This document shows positions 23,945 through 48,363 of a stretch of 64,000 nt of DNA, one piece after another. Origin of the DNA: Trichosporon coremiiforme (taxonomy: Eukaryota > Basidiomycota > Tremellomycetes > Trichosporonales > Trichosporonaceae); assembly GCA_039545355.1 (NCBI GenBank), contig BCJJ01000027.1:525648-589647 (forward strand), written 5' to 3'. Made by a program: the position numbers and the translations under genes. The first letter of the stretch is position 1; every line of letters starts with the position of its first letter. The notes under the pieces were generated by a model. The model was not told the origin of the DNA. It did no database searches and saw nothing but the letters and a program-made list of their open reading frames with translations.

Positions 23945-24479
23945 GATCACAATAAGCCGCGGCGGATGTACCAAGCGCCGTTCGCTATTGTCAATGTAGC
24001 CACCTAGGTAACTCACTGCTTAGCACACCCAGCAGCTGCTCGCGTCTGTTCTGTATGCGCTCGAGATTCCTCTGTCGGCAGACCTCAATATCGTAACACC
24101 TGCGATAATACTTCTCCTGAGCGCGGGCCAGACGGTGTCGGTCGCGCGGATGGACAGGGTATCCGTGCCCTCCTGCTTCCATTCCTCCTCCTGTTCCACC
24201 CAATCCACCCCCCATACCCTGCAGCTGCCCCGGATAGTTGAGGTTGGGATGCAGGCCGGCGTGCGAGGGATACACCGCCTGCGAGGCGTAGCCGGCGTGT
24301 CCGTATGCACCACCGTAAGAAGAGCCGTAGCGTGTAGAATTAGAGTGGAGCGGTCGGATAGCTTTCCAATACCGATACTCGGCCCTCGATCTCTTCTCAG
24401 CGGCACTGTATTCGATGCGCAGCTCTTGGTCGTGCAGTTTGCGCAGAGTGCAGAGGTAGTAGCCTTGCGTGGAGTTCAT
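23945..24479 (-). CDS. Small helical hypothetical protein with Gly/Tyr-rich linker
   Basis: Starts MNSTQGYYLCTLRKLHDQEL at 24479. Two charged, aromatic-rich helical segments (YSAAEKRSRAEYRYWKAI and LARAQEKYYRRCYDIEVCRQ) flank a Gly/Tyr/His-rich middle. The plain frame stops at 23991. A 32-nt intron (GTGAGTTACC...GACAATAG) would instead add a short exon ending near 23945. First of a run of small minus-strand genes of similar character up to 28.9 kb. Function unknown. Confidence 0.5.
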
Positions 24480-24911
24480 GGCAATAAGTATGATCGTAAG
24501 ATCTGGGAGAGGATAGGGGCATGCTTATATCCCCTTATCGATGCTTGTTGCCACCCGCTGAACCTGGGATTGCTGGGCGCTCGTTGCCATAACAGTGAAT
24601 CTGCGTGGTGAGCGTGAACATGGAGGAACAGGGCGCGTAGGTTTGCAGATATGGTCCCGTCAGTGCATGTTTGTGCGCCTGCGTCCTTTGTCCCTACAAC
24701 GCCTGACACTGACGAGGCTTGTTACGCAGCAGCCTCCAGTCAGTGACGATGCATGCATAAAGCATGCTGAGATCAGCGCAGCGTGAACGTCAGCGGCGTG
24801 GCGGCGCCTTCCATTTCTGTGCATTTATCCTAATTTCCTGAACGACCGAACAATAACACTTCACTTTCTCATATAAACTTGGTCACGTGGTGTAATACCT
24901 GGACTGTCCAG
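24480..24911. other. Intergenic, no gene seen
   Basis: Contains the downstream end of the next minus-strand gene's transcript and the leader of the previous one. No supported ORF. Confidence 0.3.
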
Positions 24912-25706
24912 CTAGTAGCCAGTGTAAACCTCCGGGCTGAGCACGACGATGAAGCTCAGCGCGATCATGCCGTCCTCCATGACCGCGACGCGGATGAAGA
25001 CGACGACGAAGGGGATAGCGGCGAAAAAGCTCCGCAAGTCCTGCAGCATGCGCGCCTGGTAGACTGTGTCGTTCGGGTAGAGCACAATGTAGGCGGGCAT
25101 GCCATCCTCAATCTTCTCCCAGTAGAGGGGCACGTTGGCGTCAATGTGGCCGTTCGCGCGCGCGGCGTCTGGTGTCAGCGTGCTATTGGTCATCCAAGCT
25201 GCTGACGGGGCATGCGTAAGAGAGGTCTGCATGGCCAAGCACAGCAGTAGGAGAGAGACTCACAATACGCGACCTGGGCGTCCCACCAGCTAACGCTCTG
25301 AGTGGCAAACATTCCCCCGTTCCAGGGGGCCGCTCTGGAGGCATGCACCGGCACGAATGCAAACGCGGCGGAAGAGGGTCTGGACAGCCTGGATGCGCGC
25401 AGCGAAGTGCTCGACCTGCCCCGGCGTGTCAAGGGGCGCCTCACAGTCCCTGTCGATGGTCTCCCAGACTGCATAATCCGAATCCGCGGGAGTCAGACGG
25501 AAGACACGGACGCCTCTCTCGTCCACCGTCAGCGTTGGTCGAGGAGCGGGGGGAGTCATCCAGTACGGGGCTTGGAAAAGGGGAACGGTGACCGGTTCGG
25601 GGATCATGGAGGTGGTAGCGGTGCTGTTTGGGGTGTTGCCAGCCGTTTCGGGGATGCCGTCGTGCGCGTTGGTAGTGGCGCCGTTCGTGGTGTTGTTCGC
25701 GTGCAT
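24912..25706 (-). CDS. Hypothetical protein, reading frame unresolved
   Basis: Starts MHANNTTNGATTNAHDGIPE. A first coding segment runs to about 25340 (RPTLTVDERGVRVFRL...GQVEHFAARIQAVQTLF). A second segment, WWDAQVAYS, splices cleanly over a 60-70-nt intron to WMTNSTLTPDAARANGHIDA and ends PEVYTGY at 24912. The C-terminus has a hydrophobic run (FAAIPFVVVFIRVAV...IALSFIVVL) that could be one or two membrane helices. The first and second segments lie in different frames and I found no consensus intron to join them near 25340, so either an unusual intron or a frameshift is present. Family unknown. Confidence 0.4.
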
Positions 25707-26210
25707 GACGGTCTGCTGTCAATACGAGTCTATGCTGAACTGTAGGTAACCTACATTGATATTTGCTGAAGTTGGATGATGGGAGTTGTTATGTTCGAAG
25801 ACGCAAGGAGGAAATGTGACCAGCAGGCCACGATGTAGCGGACACATTGATGAGCAGACACGCTAATGCCGTGCGGTTTGGACGGATGGACTACGACGTG
25901 CGAGTGCGGTGCTGTGCTGGAAGTGGTGTGGAACGGTGCAAAGCCACATGGACACTACCCAGACGTAAGCTGACGGGCTACTTGCTGGACGTGCCCAAGG
26001 AGGGTCAGGCTGTACAGCAGCGGGCCTCAGACAGCTTGCACCTATCAGCATTCGCCCCGTCAATGCACATGTGTCTGCAGCCGGATTTTGAATTATGTTA
26101 CATAAAGAATAGTATTCACAGGAAGGGTCCTCGGCCTGTGGAGCCGGAAGTCGGGAGAGTCTACGGACAATCAGTTCCCACCCTGTACCGATATGACTCA
26201 CGTAGAGCTA
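25707..26210. other. Intergenic, no gene seen
   Basis: Open frames on both strands lack protein character and start at non-ATG codons. No further signal recognised. Confidence 0.3.
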
Positions 26211-26495
26211 CTACTGCGGAGTGACCTCGAACTCAAGTACAGCGCGGACGCACGTTGTGAACTCGCACGACTGTGCCTCGCGCTGGCGCTTGTAGTCGCG
26301 GTTCAGCGCCGCTAGCTTGAAGAGGTACTCGCTCTCGTTGCGGCTGTGCCTGCTAATGTGGACGAGAAGCAGATGGCGCTCCTCGTCAAGACGCTTCATG
26401 GTCTTGACATGGAGCGCCACAAGCTCGTCCACAACAGCCTGCTTGTGGGGGTTGGTTGGCATCGGAAGGTGGGTCGGGGACAGAGAAGTAGACAT
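26211..26495 (-). CDS. Small helical hypothetical protein, 94 residues
   Basis: ATG at 26495, stop at 26211. After a Ser/Pro-rich start, residues 20-90 form amphipathic helices (QAVVDELVALHVKTMKRLDE, NESEYLFKLAALNRDYKRQR). The pattern of Leu/Tyr/Arg in heptads matches the neighbouring small genes at 27141-27464 and 28331-28857, suggesting one rapidly diverging family. No motif recognised. Confidence 0.5.
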   Translation of the reverse strand: MSTSLSPTHLPMPTNPHKQAVVDELVALHVKTMKRLDEERHLLLVHISRHSRNESEYLFKLAALNRDYKRQREAQSCEFTTCVRAVLEFEVTPQ

Positions 26496-27140
26496 GGTGG
26501 GGTTGTGAATGGAGAGAGGGGGTTGAAGGCGAAGTGAGGAGTACAAGAATTGACAGGAAGTTTAGCTCTTCAGCAGCGACGTGGTCTCCATGTCACACTG
26601 CAGCACATACCGACGTGTGTCCACACTCGGCAGGCTCGGTCGCTCGGCGATCCCGGGGGAGCTGTGTCGAGGTGTGCCGAGTCTCACCTTGGGATCAACG
26701 TCCTCGCCTCGTCGCACTTCTCGCAGTGGAAGTGTAGCCGGACACTTGGAGGCTGCGGAGTTTGGTTTTTGACGACACTGCTGAGAGGGGAGGGCCCCTC
26801 GGGCACGAGGAGAACCACAATGCGGAGCAGCCCATGTTTGTGCGACCTTCGTTAGGTATCCCATTGTGAGATGCAGACCTCACCATAAATGCATAGATCT
26901 AAGCTCAGATCGAGACGAAAAGATGCATGCCTCGTCGAGAACGCGTGGCCGGATTATGATGATTTCTGGCCTTTGTATGGCGCACAGACCTCATGTAATC
27001 TGGTGGCCCTCCAGATGAGGCGTCAGTGGCCTTGGCGTTGTGGATGCTTAATCGACTGAGGGCTACTCTCGGGGAGAGGGTACTGAGCATAACACTATGA
27101 CATGGCTATCTCTTGAGATCGTGCTTGGTCATGCTTGTTG
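26496..27140. other. Intergenic, no gene seen
   Basis: About 645 bases without a convincing coding segment; short open frames only. Confidence 0.3.
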
Positions 27141-27464
27141 TCACTCGAGCTGCGCGTTGCGAATGATGTCGAAGATCTCATGCGTGAGCGCTAGACGGTT
27201 GGCGTGACACCTGCGAAGCTTTTCTTCTGCCTGCTTGCGGTCACCGACGATAATTTTCCACATGTTGGGGGCGTTGTACACGTTAAAAAGCTTTTCCAAG
27301 CAACGCATGTAGTCCGTTTTGGCTGCGTACATGCGCTTCAAGATGCTGACGATAATGCTACTGTAGATGTTCAGACTTTCAATGACAGCCTTGCGTTGCG
27401 CCTGCTGCACTAGTTGACGAGACTTGCGATTGGTCTTCGAAGGTGACGACAACTTTTTGACCAT
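27141..27464 (-). CDS. Small basic helical hypothetical protein, 107 residues
   Basis: ATG at 27464, stop TGA at 27141. A basic start (MVKKLSSPSKTNRKSRQ) precedes long helices with Tyr/Leu/Arg spacing (YSSIIVSILKRMYAAKTDYM, RKQAEEKLRRCHANRLALTH). A 17-bp tandem repeat lies in its 5' leader at 27517-27570. Resembles the neighbouring small proteins in style. Function unknown. Confidence 0.5.
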   Translation of the reverse strand: MVKKLSSPSKTNRKSRQLVQQAQRKAVIESLNIYSSIIVSILKRMYAAKTDYMRCLEKLFNVYNAPNMWKIIVGDRKQAEEKLRRCHANRLALTHEIFDIIRNAQLE

Positions 27465-27516
27465 TGTGAATCTTGGCGTTGGAAGAATGAGAGTGAAGGA
27501 TAGCGAGATACTGTAC

Positions 27517-27570
27517 GTTGAATGTAGACAGTTGTTGAATGTAGACAGTTGTTGAATGTAGACAGTTGTT
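27517..27570. repeat. 17-bp tandem repeat, three copies
   Basis: GAATGTAGACAGTTGTT repeats with starts at 27520, 27537 and 27554, directly upstream of the small minus-strand gene, probably within its leader or core promoter. Confidence 0.8.
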
Positions 27571-28330
27571 ATGGTTGGGAAAACAACGACAACGCCAGCG
27601 CCCGTTTTTGAAGGAGAAGATGGTGGGGGGTCCGGTGATGGGCCAAAGGGATGGGGGGCCGCTGTTGTTGATGGCACCCCCAGCTCTTGTAGACGCGAGT
27701 GATGCAACAACGACGCGTGTCAGGAGTACCCCCGGCACATTTTATTATAATGCACCCTCTGCATTGTGCTCCGTTCTGAACACTCACCTTCGGCGTACGA
27801 TCCAGCCTAATGGGCTCCCTAGTGCAATGAGCGCGAGCAAAGCCCCGCATGCGCGTGCCTAAACAGGCTCGTGGCATGCTTATGGCCAGAGACTACATTA
27901 TGGGAGTCCATCTTGCAACGTCGAGACCCGGCACTGGCAGGATCAGGCAGGTGGTCGAATCGCATCGTAATACCAGTTGAGCAACGTATTGCAGCGGTAT
28001 TAGAACGCGCGGTGCCTCCCATAGGAATTGTCCAGAATATCACATAATTTCACTACTTTTATTTGACTGTCACATAATTTCATTACAAACCAGGTCATCC
28101 TGGTCGTCGGGGTCCGTATTTGCTTGTTGTTATTCATGCTGCCATACTGTCATACTGTCATTTGTTTCGTGTTTGATCTCAGTCGCTCTGCCCTTCTTCG
28201 TCGCCCTGCTCGCCCGCAAGCTCTCCATCATCAGCGTAGTCCCCTATCCATGCGTCATTGTCGGGGATTGCGAGGGGGGAGCCAATTCATCCCATGCGTG
28301 CACCAGGTCCGTGCCGTTCACAGGTGTGGC
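27571..28330. other. Intergenic, no gene seen
   Basis: 760 bases. AT-rich patch near 28030-28090 with a repeated CACATAATTTCA word. No supported gene. Confidence 0.3.
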
Positions 28331-28857
28331 CTACTGTAGCACCGCCTGCCAGGGATTCTTCTGAGACGCAAGAATGTACACAGCATGTGCGAAGTAGCGC
28401 TCGCCAGCCTCGACGTATTCTTCCTTAGCGCACTCTCCGAGAATGTACTCCGCCTCCAAGTAAATTTTGAAAATGTTGGTGAATCGGGCGGCGTTTCGAG
28501 TCCTCATTCCGTGGAGTGCATGAAGTCGAGTCTCTTCGAGAGCATCCACGATGCCAGGAGTGGCTCCTCGCTTCTCGAACATGACGACGCAGAATCATCC
28601 GAGAGATCGTTAAGCACGTCATTCTCTGTCTCGAGCTGCACATTCAGTCGTGCCAGTGCCGTTTGCAGAGCAATAAGGAGGGCGGGTGGAGTGAAGTATG
28701 GAAGCTCGGGGTGCTCGGGGTGCTCGGCGGCGGTGGTGGCAGGGGTGGCGGCGCACCTGTTGTCGAAACTAGAGAAATCCTGGCTGGTCAGTCGCACGTC
28801 GTGGCGCTACAACTGTGAGGCGTACTTCGGGAGGAGTAGTTGAGGGAGACATAGTGG
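28331..28857 (-). CDS. Small helical hypothetical protein, probable frame break
   Basis: An ATG near 28849 (MSPSTTPPE) splices across a 45-nt intron (GTACGC...CTGACCAGCCAG) to DFSSFDNRCAATPATTAAEH and helices PALLIALQTALARLNVQLET. That frame stops soon after. The next frame continues with a much more protein-like stretch (FEKRGATPGIVDALEETRLH, then TNIFKIYLEAEYILGECAKE) to the stop at 28331. The two halves look like one protein of the neighbouring small-helical family, with either a frameshift or an unrecognised intron near 28582. It is also the first substantial ORF downstream of the mini-intron array on the same strand. Confidence 0.4.
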
Positions 28858-31807
28858 GACCGGAGATTCAGCTCGCGGATCGATTCCCTCAGCTGTAAGA
28901 CCCACAAGGAAAGCAAGGCTAGAGCAGGACTGGGTTATCAGCTGTAGCCAGGTCATTCTAGCTCGAGACCTAGTGACGGTGGCACCTGTAGCCCGTCTTC
29001 GATGTCTCAGCCTAATGAGCCTGAATAGCTGCTGGTCTGCGATTTCGGCAGTTGGGACACCCACTTTCGCTTGTTGAGATGGTGACAGAAAAAGTGCGGG
29101 CGACTGCCGTTTCAGCTTTTAACTCCGTTTACAAATTGGTATACTTACGTTGCTTCGTGTCTAGAGTTTCAGCCAACTTTCGCTCCTTTCGATAGCTGGG
29201 CCACTCACCGGACTGAAGACAGCTCAGCGCATGCAGATGTTCGAGCTCGGCTCACCTTGACTCGCGGGACCTGGGCCTCCGCCTTCGTTATCGCGGGGGT
29301 TGAGGTGCTGGAGTGTCAGCTATCACATGTCTCATGCTGCACATGCCCGTACTTTGAGACTGTGAGAGGCTGAGGTATCAGCTTGCTATCGTCGCCCAGT
29401 AAGCTGTACAGCTGGGCTGCCTGCCTAGTACTGAGTGTCAGTCAAGTTCGACCAGTTGCTAACATGTCGACTCACGTGGCGGTTGCCTGGGCTCGGCCTC
29501 GCCCGATAGTCTGCGATATCTCACACGCGAGGACTGACGTGCCAGCTTGGCTCAGTACCGTCGCAGCTGGTCCACCTACCAAATGCTGCGTGTCAGCTAG
29601 TTCGCAGAGATCAATCAGCTGGATGACATTGACTCACTGAAGGGGTCGCTGGTCGTTAGCTTCGTTTGTACTCGTCGAAGCTACTCACAAAGAAGAGGTC
29701 GTGAGTGTCAGCTACGTCTCTAAGACTCCAACTTGTGGGCTTACCTTTGTGTCTGCGTCCGCGGATCAGCTAGTATTCGGCAACGTCCATCTAGCTTTGT
29801 AGTCACACGACTCACTGGGCTGGGACACGGCTGGTGTCCGCTACGGCAATGCGCACGACAGGTGCTCACGTTTGTTCTGTGTGTCAGCTAGGCTTGCACG
29901 CTACCCAGCTTGTCTGCCCACCTTTGTGTCCAATGATAAGCTGCGTCTGAATATCAGGGTAGCTCGCAGTAGCTGGGAGTTGACTGGCGATGAGCTTGTA
30001 CGTGGTCGTTGAAGCTCGACCTACCTTGCTGATGGTCAGCTTCCACTGGTATGCGCAGCTTGGCTCACCGTACGAAAGTGATGGCCGGAGTGAGCTCGAT
30101 TGTAAGTGTGTTGTGAGCTCTTACCTGTGGAGTTGCCTGGGCCCTCGATCTCAAAGCTACTCACGTGAAAGGGCTGGGTGCCAGTTAGAGACGTTTGTGT
30201 ACACAATTCACGGCCACTTGGGGCTTGGAGCTGGGAGATGGCTGGGAGGAGAAAGGCTGCGTGTCAGTTTTTCTTTCATACTGACAACTCACAGAGAGCT
30301 GGTGACTTGTGGCCGTGACAGGCGCGCTGCCACGTCAGTTACAGCTCTGGCCATCATCAACTGACAGTATCTGTCTTGAGGAATGGACTGAGGTGTTAGT
30401 TACTCGGTTGGGGCTGGATAGCTCACGGCTTCAGTTGGTGATGGGGAAGGCAGTCGAGGAGCGGGCTGGCGAGTCAGTTCAAGTTCAATACTCATGATTC
30501 TGGGAACTGACGGTGATCGGGTGCTGTGATAATGACGAGGGCTGGGCGTCAGTTCCAGTTCCTTCAAAATAACTGACAAGGACTGTTGAACCAGGTGCTA
30601 AACAGAGGCTGGTTCCCGCTGGCCACCAAGGAGGATACTCGAAGTGCCGACTGTTGACCGGGTACTGTTGGGCGAGGGGCAGACTGGGATGTCAGTTCAT
30701 ACGGTTCAGTTGCTCGAATTCACAGTGCCTGTTGCCGAAGACTTAGGGTAGTGGGGGCTGCTGCTTGTCAGTTAGTCGTCGGATTTGACTTGACTGACGG
30801 TAGTCGGTGGGGAAGGAGGGTGCGGCTGGGAGTCAGTTTATGGAGGACATCCAAGAAACTGACGATTAGAGAAGGCGCTGTTATGTCAGTTGTTTTGTAG
30901 TATCAAATCACTTTCAACTCACAGAGGTTGAGCCTATTGGATAAGAAGCGTCGAAGGGCTGGGTAGTCAGTTAACATCCGTGTTTGGCTAAATAACCGCT
31001 TCTACGTGGAGAGGCAGCCTTGAGACCTGCTTGTCAGTTCAGGCGCCGCGTCAAACAACTGACCCGCGTCAGTGTAGTGGAGAGATAGACTGGAATGAGC
31101 TAGTACTCAACGGCGACGTAGCTACCGAGAGAGCTGGATGTCAGTTCGAAGCACCGTAAGCAGAACTCACAGTGGATTTGCCAGCTCGCAGCGGCCAAGA
31201 AGCTACCGAGATATCGAAGGGGCTGGATGTCAGTTCGAAGCGCCGCGAGCAGAACTCACAGTATCGGTCGACGCTCAAGGGCGCTGTGGGTCAGCTTTAC
31301 CTCTGCTTCCTCTAGCTGCCGTGCAATCGTGGAAGGATGTCGGAAGGCGGCTGAAGGTCAGTTTGGTCCGTCTTCTCACTGAAAACTTGCAAGCTTTCTC
31401 AATCGGCACTCGAAGCTCGAGTTTAGGCTGCGTGTCAGTTCGTCGCGTAGGCGCAGTAGGCGCTAACTGACTCTCGTTGACTTTCATGGTGTTGTCGTGG
31501 ATGTGTGAGAGAGTCTGGCGGTCAGATTGACGTCGAGGCTTGCGCAGCTCACGTGTTCGTCTGAGGTAGACTGGCAGTCAGCTAGAGTTCGAGAGCGAGA
31601 CAGCTACCGATTACTGGGATGAGCTCGAGTAAGGAGAACTGGTAAGCTCACCGAGTCGTCTAGGGAAACCGAGGGTCAGCTCATACTCGTCGTCAACATA
31701 GCTCACCCGAATAAGGGCTGGCAGTTAGCTGTCATCCACCAAGAGACCAGCTCACCGATAATGTGATGGAGTGGAATGAAGATGGATGAAGAGTGAGCGA
31801 AGGCTAG
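28858..31807 (-). other. Mini-intron array: about 35-40 consecutive short introns with micro-exons
   Basis: Read on the minus strand, this 2.9-kb stretch is a nearly unbroken series of intron-like units. Each has a donor (GTGAGT, GTGAGC, GTCAGT, GTAGCT, GTAAGT), a CTGAC or CTAAC branch site, and a CAG about 5-8 nt later. Examples are 31718-31755 (38 nt), 31223-31259 (37), 31134-31170 (37), 30542-30577 (36) and 29586-29637 (52). The pieces between are C-rich and about 4-50 nt long, a few longer. A TATA box stands upstream of the first unit. No ATG occurs before 31487. Joined exons keep frames open for about 75 and about 110 codons in two stretches, but in different frames, so coding status is undecided. 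It could be an intron-dense gene, a spliced non-coding RNA, or a long leader of the small ORF at 28331-28857. Confidence 0.7.
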
Positions 31808-31816
31808 CTTTATATA
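31808..31816 (-). promoter_or_regulatory. TATA box upstream of the mini-intron array
   Basis: TATATAAAG on the minus strand, about 50 nt upstream of the first donor site (31755). Position and orientation agree with a transcript entering the array. Confidence 0.6.
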
Positions 31817-32666
31817 CACGGCCATGTCAAGGCATCTCGGAGCGGCCCGGCGTTTGTCGTGCTGACCTGCTGGAGACAAAGCATGGGGAGGGTGAGGTGC
31901 GACGTTGGGGCGGGATTCCGCAGCGACAAGTCGAGCGCAAGGCGGACGAGGAGAGGAAGACCAGTGTGCGAAGAAGGGAGCGGTGCGGATGTGTGTCTGC
32001 TATGGGATGTCCAGACAGTCGTGGCCTGTCTGGGATCTCGCTCTTCCTTGCCAGTCGTGGCCTGAGTCTCGGCCTGAGAAGGCAGGCGGCCGGAAGGGTT
32101 GCAATAGGACGAGGAGAGGATGCGTGCGAGAATGTGTGTCTCGAAACACCACGTCGAGTCCCGTCACCTCTGACGGCGTGCCGGTTTCGAGAGCGCGGCG
32201 GAAAGTTGCACGGGAGCGAGAGTGTGTCGCTGTCGTGACCGATAGTCGCCGATCCTCAGAACGGTTGCCCCACGAGGGCGTTGAGAGAAAGGAAGGGCTG
32301 CAATGGTCAGCGCCAGATTAGTTCGGGTGTGAGTGCACGCCGAGTCTGCCACCACTCTCCGCGTGTCGACCAATCTGCCCTCTGCATCCACCGACTAGCC
32401 CTGTAATGTCGATGAGGCGGGGTTTGCAGAATCTCACCGTCGTGAGAAGCAACAGGCGAGCGCCCCGGCATAGTAATCACCCTCAAACTCCTCAGTTCTC
32501 ACGACGCCATCGTCGTCCTTCAATTGCCGTCGCGCCGTCCACGTTCTCCACACTCCTTCCCCTCCTCCACTCAGAAAATCGACTGCCACTGTGCCACTCC
32601 TCTCCCGCTTACGTAACATTTACCCAGCCCGAACAAATTTCAAAAAGATTGAGGTAGTCAGTTTAA
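31817..32666. other. Intergenic, no gene seen
   Basis: About 850 bases between the array promoter and the tRNA gene. Plus-strand open frames are Arg/Gly-rich readings without domain character. Confidence 0.3.
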
Positions 32667-32752
32667 GGCCACTTAGCTCAGTTGGTTAGAGCGTATGCTT
32701 AACACTTGGTGTCTTACGCATAAGGTCGGCGGTTCGACCCCGCCAGAGGTCA
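32667..32752 (+). tRNA. tRNA-Val (anticodon AAC) with 12-nt intron
   Basis: Cloverleaf can be folded. The acceptor is GGCCACT against AGAGGTC with one A-A mismatch at pair 5-68. The D arm is GCTC-loop-GAGC. The anticodon stem TATGC/GCATA encloses loop TTAACAC after a 12-nt intron (about CTTGGTGTCTTA) is removed just 3' of position 37, and the T arm is GGCGG-TTCGACC-CCGCC. Anticodon AAC reads valine codons. A-box (TAGCTCAGTTGG) and B-box (GGTTCGACCCC) promoters are internal. Confidence 0.92.
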
Positions 32753-32759: not shown

Positions 32760-33469
32760 CGATATCGTCCCGGTTGTCGGCTACTCAGGGCATGGTTGGC
32801 GGCTGGAGGTTGCTTTTTGGACCAGAAGCCGAATGCAGGACATGGTGAGAGAGCAGAGGACGGCCGGAGATGTCGGCAAAGGTCAGGCGTGCCGTGGTGG
32901 GAGGTGTGGATGGTCGTGATGCCGAGCCAAGACTGTGGCGGCGATGAAGGGGTCGACGAGTCGATGGCTGCAATGGAGTTGGTCAGTCTGGCCTGGTCCA
33001 TGTCACTGCACTGTATATGTACTTGCTATACGTATCCGAGAACAATAGATCTACCCATTACCTGTCAGTCTCAAGTTAGTACAACAACACGCCGACCGCA
33101 TCACGTATGTTGCTGGACTCCAGGGAGACAAGAATGCGCCATTCTGAGTTCACTACAATTACACAAAAGTCATTTCCTTAAGAGAGCTAAAGTATGAGAA
33201 AGAATGTTCACAGCCCTCGCGCGTGCGCGGCACGGACAGTGTTCGCGCAGAGAGGGGATAACCATGGATGTCATAGATGGAACAATGTCTGCTGGCCTGG
33301 GGCCGCGTGCTGGTGATGCTAATGACGACGGACATGCTCGTGCGTAGGAAAAGATATGTCATCGGCGGGGCAGCGACTACGCCGAGCGCAGTCGCATATG
33401 CTTGTACCGATTGCTATGGCGCCGGTGCGCCCTGGGGATATTCTCGGTCGGACTTAATGGTCTGGCGCA
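32760..33469. other. Intergenic, no gene seen
   Basis: Downstream region of the RhoGAP gene on the minus strand; no supported ORF. Confidence 0.3.
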
Positions 33470-35701
33470 CTACGCCTCGCGCACGACGCGGCGCATGCGG
33501 TTCGTAAAGTCGGACACGCGCTTAGTCGGGAGCGTCTTTCGGCGGAGGAGACTGGTCGCGCCGCCGGTCGGCTTGGGGCTGTTGGTGCGCCCGTCCGCGT
33601 TCCACAGTGCGCCGCGGCGCGGCAGCGGCGACGGGCTCACCTTCTTGTTCTCGTAGATGATGTAGCCTCCGGCTGGTGCGTCGTCGTCCGAGTCGGAGGG
33701 GTACATGCCCGTCGCGACGCCGGCGCGCCGGCGAGATGGCGAGGGACTGACCGGATCTGCGCTCCGGGTCTGCTGCCGCGACGTGCCCCGCCGCCTCGGC
33801 TTGGGCTGCTCCGGCAGCAGGTCGGTTACGCTCGCCTTCGGGAGGGCCTTTGGTGGCGCGGTCGGCGGCTGCGGGCTTCGCGGCTTCTCCACGATGTAGT
33901 ACCCGCCCTTCGGCGCCTCGTCGTCCGAATCGGAAGGCAGCATGAAGTCCGTGTCCGCACGCTGCGGCTGCGGCCGGCTCGGCGACTGGCCGCGCGAGCT
34001 GGTCGGCGTGCGAGCCGGGTGCGGCGACGGCGTGCGGGGGGACGTCGGGCTCTTCAGCGACGCCCTCGCCGCAAGCGAGCTTGTGCGCGGAGACAGCCCG
34101 CTGACAGCGAGTGACGAAGAGGAGACGCCGAGATTCTCACGCTTCGACGAACTCGGGATCGGTCGCGGCTGAGCAACGGCGTGGCTGCTGGCGACGGCGT
34201 GTTCCGGCACAGAAGACGGGATCGAGATGCCGCCGGCACCGCTGGCCGGGTACTCGAGCGCCGTCTGGTAACTGTCTCCGCTCTCTCGCCGGACGACGGG
34301 TGGCCGGCTTGCGCCTCGTGTCGGCGAGTCGGTCCGCATGTCCTTGCCAGATCCCCGCCGTCCGAGCGGCGTCGGGGAGGGCGGTGCTGCGGGCGTCTCC
34401 CGGTTCTCCTGTCGAGACGCGTCCAGCCCCGTCGCAGGTCGAGCGCTAGGGTCGCCTGACGACCCGAGAGTGGGGACGACTCCGCTGTTTTGCCGGGAGG
34501 CGATCCTCTGCTCTGTCAGCTTAATCCCGCTTTAAAAAAAGCTCACCATGGTCATGCCAAAGACGAAGGATGCCTCGTGATCGATCAGGAACTTGACGAC
34601 GTCCTTCGAGACGGCGCTCTCTGCTGGTCGCATGTCGTGGCCGCGGTGGTGCAGAATGCCGGGCTGGAAGATGACAGCCAGATCTGGTACCAGTTAGCGC
34701 AAGTAGGTCCTGGTAACTTACTACCCGCGGTCATGAGATTCTTATCCGACTCCTTTGCAAAAATCCCCAGGAGATCGAGCACGTACAACAGCAGGAACTG
34801 GTTCTCAGCCGGCATGCGCCGGATGAGCCGCTTGTACTCGCGTATTCTCTGGTCGTCTGACAGGCCGGGCATCGTCGCAATGTCGCGGAACTGAAGCTAG
34901 TTAGTCTCGGTGAGATACCGTTCAACTTACCCTATTGTAGAACGAGCATGGGATGACGGGCTCTGGCATCTGGGTGAGGAAGCGTCGGAATATCGTCGCA
35001 ACGTCATGCGGCGTATAGAACGTTTCTGACCAGTCGAGATGGAGGCCATACTGTGTGTGAGCGCACTGCCGCGGTACAGACCGAAGATCGGCAAGACTTA
35101 CGTCGGGTCCAGTGTCGAACGCCAACTGGAGATCTCGCATGCGCTTCGCCGAACCGGAGATGCGGAAGACACCCTCGATATCCGTCTTGCCCTTGAGGTA
35201 GGCCCCGCAGCGGGCGACGGCGATGGGGACCTCGCCCCACATGTTGAGCGAGCCGTCGGGTGCCTGTGTCGAGATGGACATGCCGGCGTACTGCAGCACG
35301 ACATGGAGCGGGACGCCGAACTGGAGTCGAGTGTTCATCGTTACCGGCGTACGCGTCGGCGCCGACGACTTCGGATTGCTGCTGAACGCCTTCCACCATG
35401 TCTTCAGACCTTGAGTGCTCTTCTCGCGCTCAGACATCTCAGCACGAGCATCGGGCGAATCGCCAGATGGTGCAGGCTTGCGCTTGGTGGTGGTTCTGCG
35501 TCGAAGGAGTCCAACAGCACCGCTGCTTATAGGCTTGTCATTCTCGTAGCACTGTCCCGCAGCCTGGATAGCCTGCGCCTGTGTGGTCGATGACTCGCCC
35601 AAAGTGGGCTGCGCCCCTGCGTCACCGGCTGTGTAGGCGTCGGCAGAAGGGTAGGCGACACGGCCGCGCGCCGGGGCAGGCGGCGGTCGAGTCGAAGGCA
35701 T
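33470..35701 (-). CDS. Rho GTPase-activating protein (RhoGAP domain)
   Basis: Five exons: 35102-35701, 34931-35050, 34725-34890, 34547-34683 and 33470-34507, giving about 686 residues. All junctions keep frame. The RhoGAP domain (about residues 130-310) starts FGVPLHVVLQYAG and contains GVFRISGSAKRMRDL with the catalytic arginine finger. It continues with YTPHDVATIFRRFLTQMPEPVIP, ENQFLLLYVLDLLGIFA and LAVIFQPGILHH. Order and spacing resemble the yeast Sac7/Bag7 group, which stimulate Rho1 GTP hydrolysis in cell-wall and actin control; that subgroup is an inference. The C-terminal 350 residues are Ser/Pro/Arg-rich, with the motif MxPSDSDDxAPxGGYxI twice. Confidence 0.9.
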
Positions 35702-38700
35702 GGAAGAACGGTGCCCCAGGGCGTTGTGGGCCTAGGAGTAGAGGCGTCGCAAGAGTTGGGGGTGGAATGGTGTGTGGAATGCTGATACCGTGTTGATGGC
35801 TGATGCGGAGATATAGCCTGCGGTGGGTGGCAAAGCAAAAGCGATGGTATGGATCAGCTTGGGGAGCGCGACGGTCGTCGGTTGGTCGTAAGCGAGATGT
35901 GTGCTGTGACAAAGACGTGTGCTGTGACAAACGCAAGACAAAGGGGGGGAGAGGTCAGCTTGGGGGTTGTCCGACGTCACTGGCGACACTCCCTTGTGGT
36001 CACTGGGTCAAGAGGTCAAGACGTTGCTGAAACGAGGCCGAACGCGTTGACGCAGACAAGGTTCTCGTTGATGGGATGCGATATGAGAAGAGCAGGGGTG
36101 CACACGGAGCGCACACGGCGGCAGGTCTGGAAGGCCACGTAAAGAAGGATCTAAGGGATTCGTCTGATTCAAACACAGATCAGATGAGCCCGCGCGTGAC
36201 TTTATGAGGTAACGGACAGCGGACGGGTGGTTCTGGCAAGACGCGCGGAAGAGGAGGGCGTGATGGTCTTGGTGACTGATGAGCTGTGCGCTGCGTGCCG
36301 CAGAGCCGCGCGGGCGATGGCGATGGCGATGGCGATCGGGCGGGAAAGCGAAGCGGCGGTTCGTCTGGGACGAGCGGCGGCGCGATCGGAGGATGTTCAG
36401 CGGGCAGAGGTCGAGCGCAAAAGCGAGTGCTGCCGGTGGCCGGTGCAGTGACTATCCGAGTCGCGCGACGTGCGATTGCGACGTGCGCTGGGCTCCGAGT
36501 TGGAATGCGAAATCGAAAGGAAGCACAGGAGCGGTCGAAGCGGAACACGAAGCACCCGAAAGTTTGTGAAGGATGTGTAAGAGAGTTGGGTGATGCGCGA
36601 TGCGCTCGAATTCCCCAGAGAGTGGACGGAGATAAGGAAAGGCAGAAAATGCTGTTGGCTGATGGCTGATGGTGGTCGATGATGGTTGGGATCTCGGTGG
36701 GTCAGGCGGTCAGGCCGGAGGGGTGCGGCAGGGCTCGGTAGAGATGGATAGGGTGTGCCAGGGCGGCGGCGGGGGCTCGAACCGGTTGGCTGGCTGGCTG
36801 GCCGGCCGGGCTGGGTTGGCGCACAGGGTGGGAGTGAGGGAATGGCGATTGAGGGTGGTGTCGAGGTCTGAATGAGGGTGTGTGAAGAGGCAAGAGGGGG
36901 GAGGATGGGCACGGGGGTGGGTGTCGGCTTGGGCTTGGTGGATTGTGGATCTGACGTCGGGCCCGTCGAGCACCCACTTTTGGATCTGGCAGAGCTGCCC
37001 GACGAGGGTTGGGGTGGGGATGGTGTTCTTTCTTCGCTCGCTTCGGAAAGTCTGAGCCTGTTGTGTGCTTGGTCGCTGTTGGCTGTGTGCGACGGACAAA
37101 GACTTCTGTGGACGAGGAAGGATGAGGGGAGGGTGAGGGAGGGTGGTGAGGGGTGGGTGAAGGATTGAGGGAACGCGAGGTGGGAGGTGCGCTAGGTGCG
37201 GCCACGGCCTAAGGGAAGGTCGCGGCGGCGGCAAGGGACGGCGAAGGGCAGGAGCAGGGATGGCAGGGCTCTTCCGGCTCGTCGAGAGACGTGAAAAGTC
37301 AAGGGAAGACGCGGGGTACAGGGACACAGGGTCAGTCCAGGCCGAGAGGGTGCGTCGTGCAAAGTTTGACCGCTCGCGTGTCCTCTTGCGTCCAGTGGCC
37401 AACTCGTAGTGTGTGTGCGTGGTGGGCTCGGAGGCGTGTGAGGGTCAGTCAAGATACGAGGGTCACCGTAATGGCGAGTAAGGGCCATATCGTGCAATGT
37501 GCAGCGTCAAAGCCAGAGTCTCAGACTGGGGGGCATGCACTGTGCAAATGGGACAAGCCATGCAGGCTATGCAGGCCAGGTGGCGAGGTGGATTCATTAT
37601 ATTCCGTCCATTCGAACTCGATTAGGACGATTATGAGGGTGCGCAGAGAGGGTAAGGATCGACCGAGGTACAAATGGGTTCCGACTGCAGCGCATGTAGC
37701 GCATGTAGCGCATGCAGGGAACGGGCCAAGGGTGCCAAGGTGGCAAGGGCTAGGCCGCGACCACAAGAGCCATGCACCACCGTGCTAAGGGTTGCACGCT
37801 GCAGGTGAGCAATGCGCTATGCGCCGCTGGCTGGTGGGGGGGGGGAATGCATCTGTTTATACATGACCTACCTGCTGGTTGTCAGTGCATGCAGATCCCG
37901 CATAACGGTGTGCGCGTCGTACGCGTGCATGCCATGCTCCCAAAGTAAAGTGTGTGTGTGTGCTTGGCAATGCTTGCGCGGGTAATCAGTGTTCTGCTGG
38001 TTTGTCTTTGGGTGTGGTGCTGACGCCGCATTGTCAGTGTCGGGTGCAGGAGGCAGGAGGGCGAGCCCAAGCGCTTAAGCGCACGTCAGGATGGCATATG
38101 GCATGAGGCATGCTGCGAGGGGCCAAGCGTCCAGTTATAGTGGGCTTGGCATTCACTGCCCGTCCACCAGGCTTCCTTAACTTAGAGTTACCGGCACCCG
38201 CTGACACCCACTGACACACTGAGAGATGAGAGAGCAAGCCCGCCCCGCTGGATGCGCTGGATTCGATCCAGGTACTCTGCTTAAGCTTTGCTAGTCTGCA
38301 GAAATGACGGAATACTCGAGCTTCATGCCCGGCTGGTACGGGCAGATCTCACCGTCAATTGACGGGCGAGGTCACAAGCCCGACAACGGTCTCTGCCCGA
38401 CCAGCCGACCACCAGCGTTCCAACTGGTGTCGGACACGCTCGCAGGTCGCCGGGAAGATAGCCGGGGCTGCGGCAGATTGATGACTGCTGCGGGATGCCG
38501 ACGGATGGTGGGGTTTGCCGTTCAGTGTGCACAGTGGATGCCGCTCGAACCTCTGCTTCTTCTAGAGGCTGAGGGGTGAGGCGGAGGCCGACGCACAGGG
38601 AGAAGCAGGCGACGTCGGGCAAGCACGCCTAGCACGCCTACCACCTCGATTCGATGTAAACGAGGTGGCAGATGGCATGCGAGCTCCAACGATTGAAAGA

Positions 38701-47469: not shown

Positions 47470-48363
47470 TTACCAATCCTTGGACAGCTTGAAGCCTGGG
47501 ATACGTCAGTGCTCTGTCCTGGACCTTGTCGTGGGCGTTGCGAAGGCGAGGCGGTGAAACTTCGCACCTACGCCGCGCCTGAGACTGCTCTACTCACCCC
47601 ACTCGACATCGATCCAGACGTTGTTGTCGTCGTCAATGAGTCGCGAGCGCACCGCGTACGAGCCGGAGCGCGCGAGCATGCCCGTAGGCGCCTCCTCCGA
47701 AGCGAACTGAGGTCAGTTAAGGCAGGGGGGTATGCAACTTACGACTTTAGTGTACGGCTCCTCCTGGGGTCCATATGATCCGAGCATTGCCTCCGTCTTG
47801 TCGACTGTCTGTCAGTTGCGGAGTGCAGCTGCCAACTCACCAGTGACACCCGCACGCTTCACGACCTGGAGGTACTTGAGGCCGGAGACGATCTCGCTCT
47901 TGACGCGGAACTTGATACCGACGCTGTACTCGACTCCCTCCTTGATGGTGACTGGGGTCAGTTCAGTTGGCGGCCGACGAACTCACTAGGGTCCTTCTTC
48001 AGCTTGGCAATGTCGGCGGGGGGCATGGTGAGGTCGAGGGTGATGTCGCCGCCGGGGCGAGTGGGGGAGGTGAGGAAGAGGGAGACGGGGACAACCTCCT
48101 TCTTGCCGCTGCCGCCGGCGGCACCGGTGAGACCGAGCGAAGCCTTCCAGCGCTGCAGCGACTCGTCCTCCTGGTCGAGGGCGGCGAGCTCGGCCATGGT
48201 CTTGGCCTCACCGACCTGGGCGTTAACACATTCGTTCCAGAGCGGTGGAAATCTTGAATGAGATGACGAACCTTGTAGCCCTCGGTCTGGGTCGGGAGAA
48301 GCTCGTCGTCGTGATGCTGGAATGTCAGCTTTGAAAGCGGAGTGTCTAGCTCACGTCGGCCAT
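47470..48363 (-). CDS. RDI1: Rho GDP-dissociation inhibitor
   Basis: Six or so exons from the ATG at 48363 (MAD, then HHDDELLPTQTEGYK, VGEAKTMAELAALDQEDESL). Later blocks are LQRWKASLG, DITLDLT, IKEGVEYSVGIKFRV, LKYLQVVKRAGV, MLGSYGPQEEPYTK, EEAPTGMLARSGSYAVRS and the GFKLSKDW C-terminus. Each is a Rho GDI landmark, including the isoprenyl-pocket immunoglobulin-like domain. The protein extracts prenylated Rho/Cdc42 GTPases from membranes and holds them in the cytosol. The last exon (GFKLSKDW-stop) is only about 26 nt. About 200 residues. Confidence 0.93.

Follow-up and report, generated by a model that had tools for sequence, protein, structure and literature searches.

The window, a stretch of 64,000 nucleotides, lies on contig C27; the genome measures 42.0 Mb in 134 contigs. 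On its minus strand, between 28.86 and 31.82 kb, lies a dense array of very short predicted introns behind a TATA-like box. Upstream of the array are a tRNA-Leu gene with anticodon TAA (32667..32752, plus strand), about 850 nt before the TATA box, and a strip with a RhoGAP-domain gene (33448..37300, minus strand), which is 82% identical to C11:1014921-1018780 and provides a synteny anchor. On the downstream side, the minus strand carries an 87-aa open frame (28331..28594), which the initial annotation had named and which has a single place in the genome at E <= 1 and no Pfam match, and a relative (26171..26742; 69% DNA identity, 66% protein identity at 26214-26495) of the small gene that directly follows the homeologous array. 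Small, fast-evolving frames cluster beside the array, at 24000-28800 on the minus strand of the window and at 3399-6230 of L016; those searched with Pfam, at 27144-27719 and 28331-28594, gave no match.

Segments of the window have second copies on contig C11, with DNA identities of 78 and 82% and their order kept, an arrangement as in a hybrid. Hybrid Trichosporon species are on record (PMC6642101). The homeologous tRNA, at L016 1450-1538, was found by Rfam and not by ARAGORN. Among the records listed for a sugar-transporter-like protein of the window, the closest named ones are from Cutaneotrichosporon (68 and 64%) and Vanrija (60%), and metagenome proteins match it at 90 and 84%, from which the source is taken to be a fungus like those of the Trichosporonales.

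Introns were parsed with a donor/branch/acceptor model trained on 127 consensus introns located outside the window array, L049 and L016, up to twenty of which came from L050-L052, loci that later looked array-like themselves. The training search pattern covered about 28-46 nt and the parser up to about 64 nt, and longer introns are invisible in array and non-array sets alike. On the minus strand of 28300-31830, the model places 28 introns at threshold 14, 31 at threshold 12 and 33 at threshold 8. Dinucleotide shuffles (20 per threshold) gave a mean of 0.95 and a maximum of 4 at threshold 14, and a mean of 5.05 and a maximum of 11 at threshold 8. Degenerate donors that the model skipped were recognized by eye (GTAGCT at 31607 and 31125, GCAGCT near 31319) and raise the total to roughly 36-40, which is not a computed count. 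The 35-40 minus-strand mini-introns of the initial annotation are thereby borne out with corrections, as 28-33 modelled introns against about 1-5 in shuffled sequence, and about 36-40 with the additions made by eye.

When the minus strand was divided into 3-kb bins, the array region reached 28 introns, compared with 7 in the best bin clear of it and 1 in the median bin; on the plus strand the best bin clear of the region held 6. The plus strand of the array stretch itself scored above shuffles, with 9 introns at threshold 14, because the splice motifs are partly palindromic. At threshold 24 the contrast between the strands is 17 introns on the minus strand against 1 on the plus strand, and the sense strand is clear from the scores to be the minus strand. 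The array is real, and its oddity is the density of the introns and not their type.

The front of the array (30257..31755, minus strand) parses at threshold 14 as a single chain of 18 introns with exons of 14-106 nt, several of the longer of which conceal weak introns when inspected by eye. The far end (29029..30068, minus strand) is more degenerate and less regular than the front at 30.26-31.76 kb, and contains further introns, many of them 40-54 nt long. Between 30174 and 31471 on the minus strand, 14 of 16 parsed introns are of one type, with T at donor position +6 and A before the branch motif CTRAY. This run includes several GTCAG donors and is flanked by stretches of the C/G type, which suggests local spread by duplication. 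One intron-exon unit is duplicated in tandem (31108..31262, minus strand; 31108-31173 and 31189-31262, 78% identical over 74 nt). A simple degenerate satellite, which the initial annotation had offered as a competing explanation of the periodicity, was not found as such: Tandem Repeats Finder reported no array within 28.86-31.82 kb (score at least 40), the stretch does not consist of tandem copies of one unit apart from this 74-nt duplication, and the introns match those of ordinary genes.

The TATA-like box TATATAAAG (31816-31808, minus strand) is present where it had been annotated upstream of the first donor, but the spacing is 61 nt from its first base to the donor at 31755 and not about 50 nt. 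The box is not conserved in the C11 homeolog, which has TATCTGGGC there. The earlier observation that no ATG occurs for 320 nt holds if introns 1 and 2 are both removed, in which case the first exonic ATG is near 31487; if the weak intron 31706-31660 is left in, as in the parsed spliced RNA, an ATG follows about 78 nt past the TATA box.

The 127 training introns measure 32-44 nt, with a mode of 36 nt, and have donor GTRAGYT, branch ARCTRAY and acceptor YAG. Array introns have the same donor, branch, acceptor and length (about 37 nt) as introns outside arrays, and they also share a dependence between two positions. Donor position +6 and the base before CTRAY combine in array introns as C-G 216, T-G 25, T-A 19 and C-A 7 times (267 of 290 introns, Fisher 8e-12), and in non-array introns as C-G 112, T-G 64, T-A 40 and C-A 8 times (224 of 245, Fisher 7e-9); these counts cover introns with C or T at +6 and G or A before the branch, and array introns related by duplication are not independent. 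G-T is tolerated and C-A avoided, as is typical of RNA pairing, which here would join donor AGYU to branch ARCU. At +7 the combinations exceed expectation only slightly, and at +8 and +9 little or not at all. Minimum-energy folds pair donor with branch in 255 of 480 introns, compared with 243 when the interiors are shuffled, so that folding contributes nothing beyond the motifs. The pairing rule marks the predicted array introns as the same kind as other introns.

Non-array introns are mostly 34-41 nt long and have an AGYT at +4 to +7 that is complementary to ARCT, for example at 47986, 47840 and 47742 (minus strand) and 45335 (plus strand) of the window. Donor-branch complementarity may be a feature that ultra-short introns use in general. 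At 29029-30068 (minus strand) and in L052, inspection by eye shows introns of 40-54 nt with the putative branch-pairing AGYT (AGCT) displaced several bases downstream of the donor, as if the pairing site were movable.

The spliced product of the window array has a longest ORF of 141, against a mean of 144 in shuffled sequence (P 0.475), which speaks against protein coding, one of the three readings proposed initially; spliced non-coding RNA is the one that fits best, and the third, a leader of the frame at 28331, is taken up below. In all 11 arrays tested the longest ORF equals that of shuffles (P 0.215-0.915), whereas five of six ordinary gene blocks in the window exceed shuffles at P <= 0.01, the sixth giving P 0.06. 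The control loci L053 and L054 also exceed shuffles at P <= 0.01, and as chains alone they give P 0.055 and 0.135, respectively, which shows that the test is weak on short chains. Its sensitivity is imperfect in another respect, as the coding-looking L058 was not flagged (P 0.58). Among 13 newly found clusters, 10 had P > 0.3 and three (L072, L075 and L081) had P 0.055-0.07. The absence of a long or conserved frame in 11 of 11 arrays is what a spliced long non-coding RNA would have, and by this ORF test the arrays examined are shown to be non-coding in character.

The window array occupies one place in the genome according to a genome search, and its architecture recurs elsewhere. A pattern of branch, acceptor, exon of 4 to 20 nt and donor has 170 matches in the genome, compared with 4 for a reversed control. 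Among the first 100 matches listed, 74 lie in 24 same-strand clusters, whereas uniform placement, with an approximate genome length, gave a mean of 0.46 and a maximum of 3. We inspected 23 of the 24 clusters, C7:603k only in part; the remaining one, C4:1543395, shares an exon word with the coding-like L054. All 13 further clusters that were fetched carry chains of 7-20 introns at 10.7-17.6 per kb. The largest counts at threshold 12 were found in C12:443k (43), C12:422k (41), C1:2037k (39), L073 (34) and the window (31), followed by L072 and L079 (30 each), C6:457k (28) and C5:734k (25). Over 23 array loci, a set that leaves out L052, L058, L062, L072, L075 and L081, there are 480 modelled introns with a median of 37 nt, and the exons of up to 130 nt (n=421) have a median of 26 nt. 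Pattern and synteny searches together gave 22 separate places that are array-like and apparently non-coding, with 7-43 parsed introns each: the 11 ORF-tested arrays, the C25 partner of C1:2037k and 10 of the 13 new clusters. The window array is thus not unique and belongs to a dispersed class in the same genome.

Members of this class have little sequence in common. When 16 sequences were compared, matches between different arrays were limited to 32-43 nt, the homeolog and one flank match apart, and one further match between arrays spans 73 nt at 77%. Inspection of a few loci by eye found no promoter common to arrays. Internal tandem duplications are present in the window, L049 and L056 arrays. 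One cluster, L059, has no chain of four or more introns. Another, L058 (C4:805500-806600, minus strand), has introns mostly of 42-53 nt and exons often of 21, 27, 30 or 33 nt, and by eye resembles a coding gene made up of repeated micro-exons.

On C11, the array at the syntenic place consists of 7 parsed introns within 640 nt, where 20 shuffles give 0-1. The part of the window array that aligns to it (31428..31755, minus strand) contains four introns as labelled in the window. With these labels, splice motifs are identical at 64 of 67 positions, compared with 59 of 78 in the rest of the introns and 163 of 215 in exons (P 0.0009 and 0.0002 for the motif excess, respectively), and circular shifts of the comb of labels reach this excess in 0.35% of cases. 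The excess weakens when the five introns of the homeolog provide the labels: motifs are then identical at 60 of 69 positions, compared with 56 of 79 in introns (P 0.027) and, with no significant difference, 170 of 212 in exons (P 0.28). Over the two labellings, with four to five introns, identity is 87-96% in splice motifs and 71-80% in exons and intron interiors. The corresponding values for the neighbouring gene strip, with three introns, are 45/50 for motifs, 34/55 for intron interiors and 3221/3584 for everything else. At this one measurable locus, selection appears to see splice sites more than what they separate. Past the front part the two arrays scarcely align, and the intron number is about fourfold higher in the window. 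Tandem copies within arrays gave no clear excess of motifs over exons in L049 (16/17 vs 53/69) or in L056 (40/51 vs 52/65 for one pair of copies and 14/17 vs 81/101 for the other).

Array retention in the second genome copy was followed at six loci: the array is kept at four, absent at one and without a partner at one. In a second pair, C1:2037k and C25:382k have 39 and 9 introns, and align over about 50 nt at the array start and otherwise only in pieces under 20 nt. The partner of C1:2242k (L051) in the second copy lacks an array, and the search for a partner of C5:734k (L056) found none. Two divergent C12 arrays are paired with C6 through flank matches that span 107 and 99 nt. With a further match, 727 nt long, they suggest that the 16-kb segment between the divergent arrays is inverted between the copies, with breakpoints in or near the arrays (L063 1-721, L055 258-360, L064 148-859 and L065 722-817). 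This segment was also considered as a centromere; the idea was dropped, as the segment has long open frames and a GC content mostly near 0.6, and it contains no parsed chain of three or more introns. Inside the C6 array, a 364-aa frame (L064 2931-4025, minus strand) matches the Tc1-like transposase families HTH_Tnp_Tc3_2 and DDE_3.

On balance, we lean towards regarding the arrays as dispersed non-coding, intron-saturated transcription units, for which being spliced many times would be what selection keeps; transcription, splicing and function are here predicted from sequence. In the window, a Pol II transcript of the minus strand would start near 31.78 kb and be cut at some 30 ultra-short spliceosomal introns, giving a micro-exon RNA that lacks a meaningful reading frame. 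Small units, of one intron to a few, would duplicate in tandem and get lost, which would lead to fast turnover of sequence and intron number, with donors, branch sites and acceptors retained. If sequence and number turn over and the splice sites are kept, it would be the act and number of splicing events that matter, and the exon or intron sequence itself would not be the point. Co-transcriptional splicing could then hold the transcript or locus in a properly processed state, or occupy spliceosomes, or it might serve transcription through the locus. A more specific proposal, which we offer tentatively as a possibility, is that of a dispersed gene class, staying in place in both diverged genome copies, that would be conserved for being spliced dozens of times and not for a sequence, structure or product, and whose predicted function is the splicing load itself, e.g., by buffering the spliceosome supply or by marking the transcript or locus as processed to escape surveillance. 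The great difference in array length between genome copies makes a poor fit to a dose-like function.

The main rival is a neutral intron satellite, in which intron-exon units spread by tandem duplication in low-level non-coding transcripts and the locus has no function; such a satellite may be spliced, as cells may tolerate introns better than unspliced sequence. It accounts for turnover and duplications just as well, and several of the above observations agree with it: the internal tandem duplications in three arrays, the long local run of one intron type and the degenerate units at the far end of the window array, array bodies that align between copies only in short pieces, the Tc1-like transposon within the C6 array, and the lack of a clear motif excess in tandem copies. 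Motif identity between the homeologous arrays is similar to that in the introns of the neighbouring gene strip, which counts against neutrality. What mainly holds this explanation back is that the arrays sit at syntenic places: four of five partnered loci have kept one despite bodies diverged nearly beyond alignment. We regard a neutral satellite as rather unlikely.

A protein gene made of micro-exons, with a frame obscured by rapid evolution and by exons joined wrongly in the parse, is improbable. The chains of micro-exons and the small fast-evolving frames nearby would suit such a gene, as would the near-significant ORFs of L072, L075 and L081 (three of the 13 further clusters) and the short chains that are mostly open, namely L016 (87%), L072 and L081 (78%), L078 (74%) and L080 (70%), in a range of 24-87% across all 21 array and cluster chains. 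However, one long joined frame was not found in the window or the other large arrays. In the window, L049, L055, L056, C12:422k and L060, the longest ORF equals shuffles and takes up 31-47% of the spliced chain, compared with 94% in L054 and 98% in L053. The lengths of exons up to 60 nt are spread evenly modulo 3 (117/109/102), and array exons match the homeolog at 76-80%, far short of the 90% in the neighbouring gene strip.

Even less probable is that the array forms a long spliced 5' leader tuning the small ORF at 28331, as the initial annotation had proposed among its readings. The array does point towards this ORF, and its last parsed intron ends at 29029, which leaves about 180 nt to a possible start codon near 28850. 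However, array and ORF are not kept together: a genome search at E <= 1 gave no second place for the ORF, and it is missing from the homeologous strip, in which an array is present and is followed by the relative of the window gene at 26.2 kb. The 28331 ORF and the homeolog's small ORF, which seemed related by eye, are not significantly alike (BLASTP E 5.7), and in the genome search the latter matched better at 26.2 kb. Furthermore, the C12:422k and C6:450k arrays end tail-to-tail with a neighbouring gene, with an opposite-strand frame open in both copies. Unspliced DNA-level hairpins or inverted repeats that resemble introns by chance are hardly credible: the complementarity of donor AGYT and branch ARCT, the perfect inverted repeats that some window units form (GTCAGTT...AACTGAC) and the plus-strand scores above shuffles speak for them, but the strand asymmetry of 17 to 1 at threshold 24 and the same complementarity in introns outside arrays argue against them.

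The non-coding, splicing-centred reading places the arrays near several known systems. Cryptococcus neoformans is in the same fungal class as the source organism. For this yeast, 1,197 miscRNAs have been described, 765 of them with spliced introns and 1,434 introns in all, and the maximum intron number is 42, in a coding histidine kinase gene (PMC3990503). Introns of 40-60 nt are reported to be spliced most efficiently in C. neoformans (PMC11913375). The arrays resemble its miscRNAs in being non-coding and, as predicted here, spliced, which these RNAs often are, and in belonging to an intron-rich genome; unlike these, with about two introns per spliced RNA (PMC3990503), the largest arrays have 25-43 in one place. 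Among the titles and abstract openings listed from open-licence papers, none showed a locus of the present form. Aphid bicycle genes have many micro-exons. Micro-exons and fast sequence turnover are common to them and the arrays, but bicycle genes encode proteins (PMC9168663), whereas no frame was found in the arrays.

Like snoRNA host genes, the arrays would have non-coding exons and introns that matter, but no snoRNA match was found in the loci searched: Rfam matches in the window and 14 loci, and in the array at E <= 0.5, are tRNAs only. snoRNAs also seem too large for introns of about 37 nt. Fungal introner-like elements are near-identical copies inserted into genes. With these the arrays share the presence of many introns of one kind; in contrast, array introns have little in common beyond splice motifs, local tandem copies apart, and near-identical intron copies dispersed in genes were not found in the arrays. 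The arrays may represent an extreme form of spliced non-coding RNA locus, their splicing being predicted.

If spliced as read, these loci would be extremely intron-dense (chains of 11-18 introns per kb) without a protein to explain the density. They would make it possible to test directly whether selection can favour splicing as such, and how the spliceosome copes with 37-nt introns when the exons between them measure only some tens of nucleotides. A testable rule for ultra-short introns in general comes from the pairing of donor and branch motifs.

Some further features lie near arrays. A link with tRNA genes was considered, as these are near the window and the C12/C6 arrays, and rejected, as none was found in the 13 further clusters, whose flanks are short. 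Genes that by eye are BTB/POZ-like adjoin two array loci or their partners (L069, and L049 from 5832 onward); a 35-aa piece of such a gene matched no Pfam family. In the flank of the L051 array, a 294-bp stretch (L051 108-401) recurs at 99-100% identity on C7 and C3 and is probably a young repeat.
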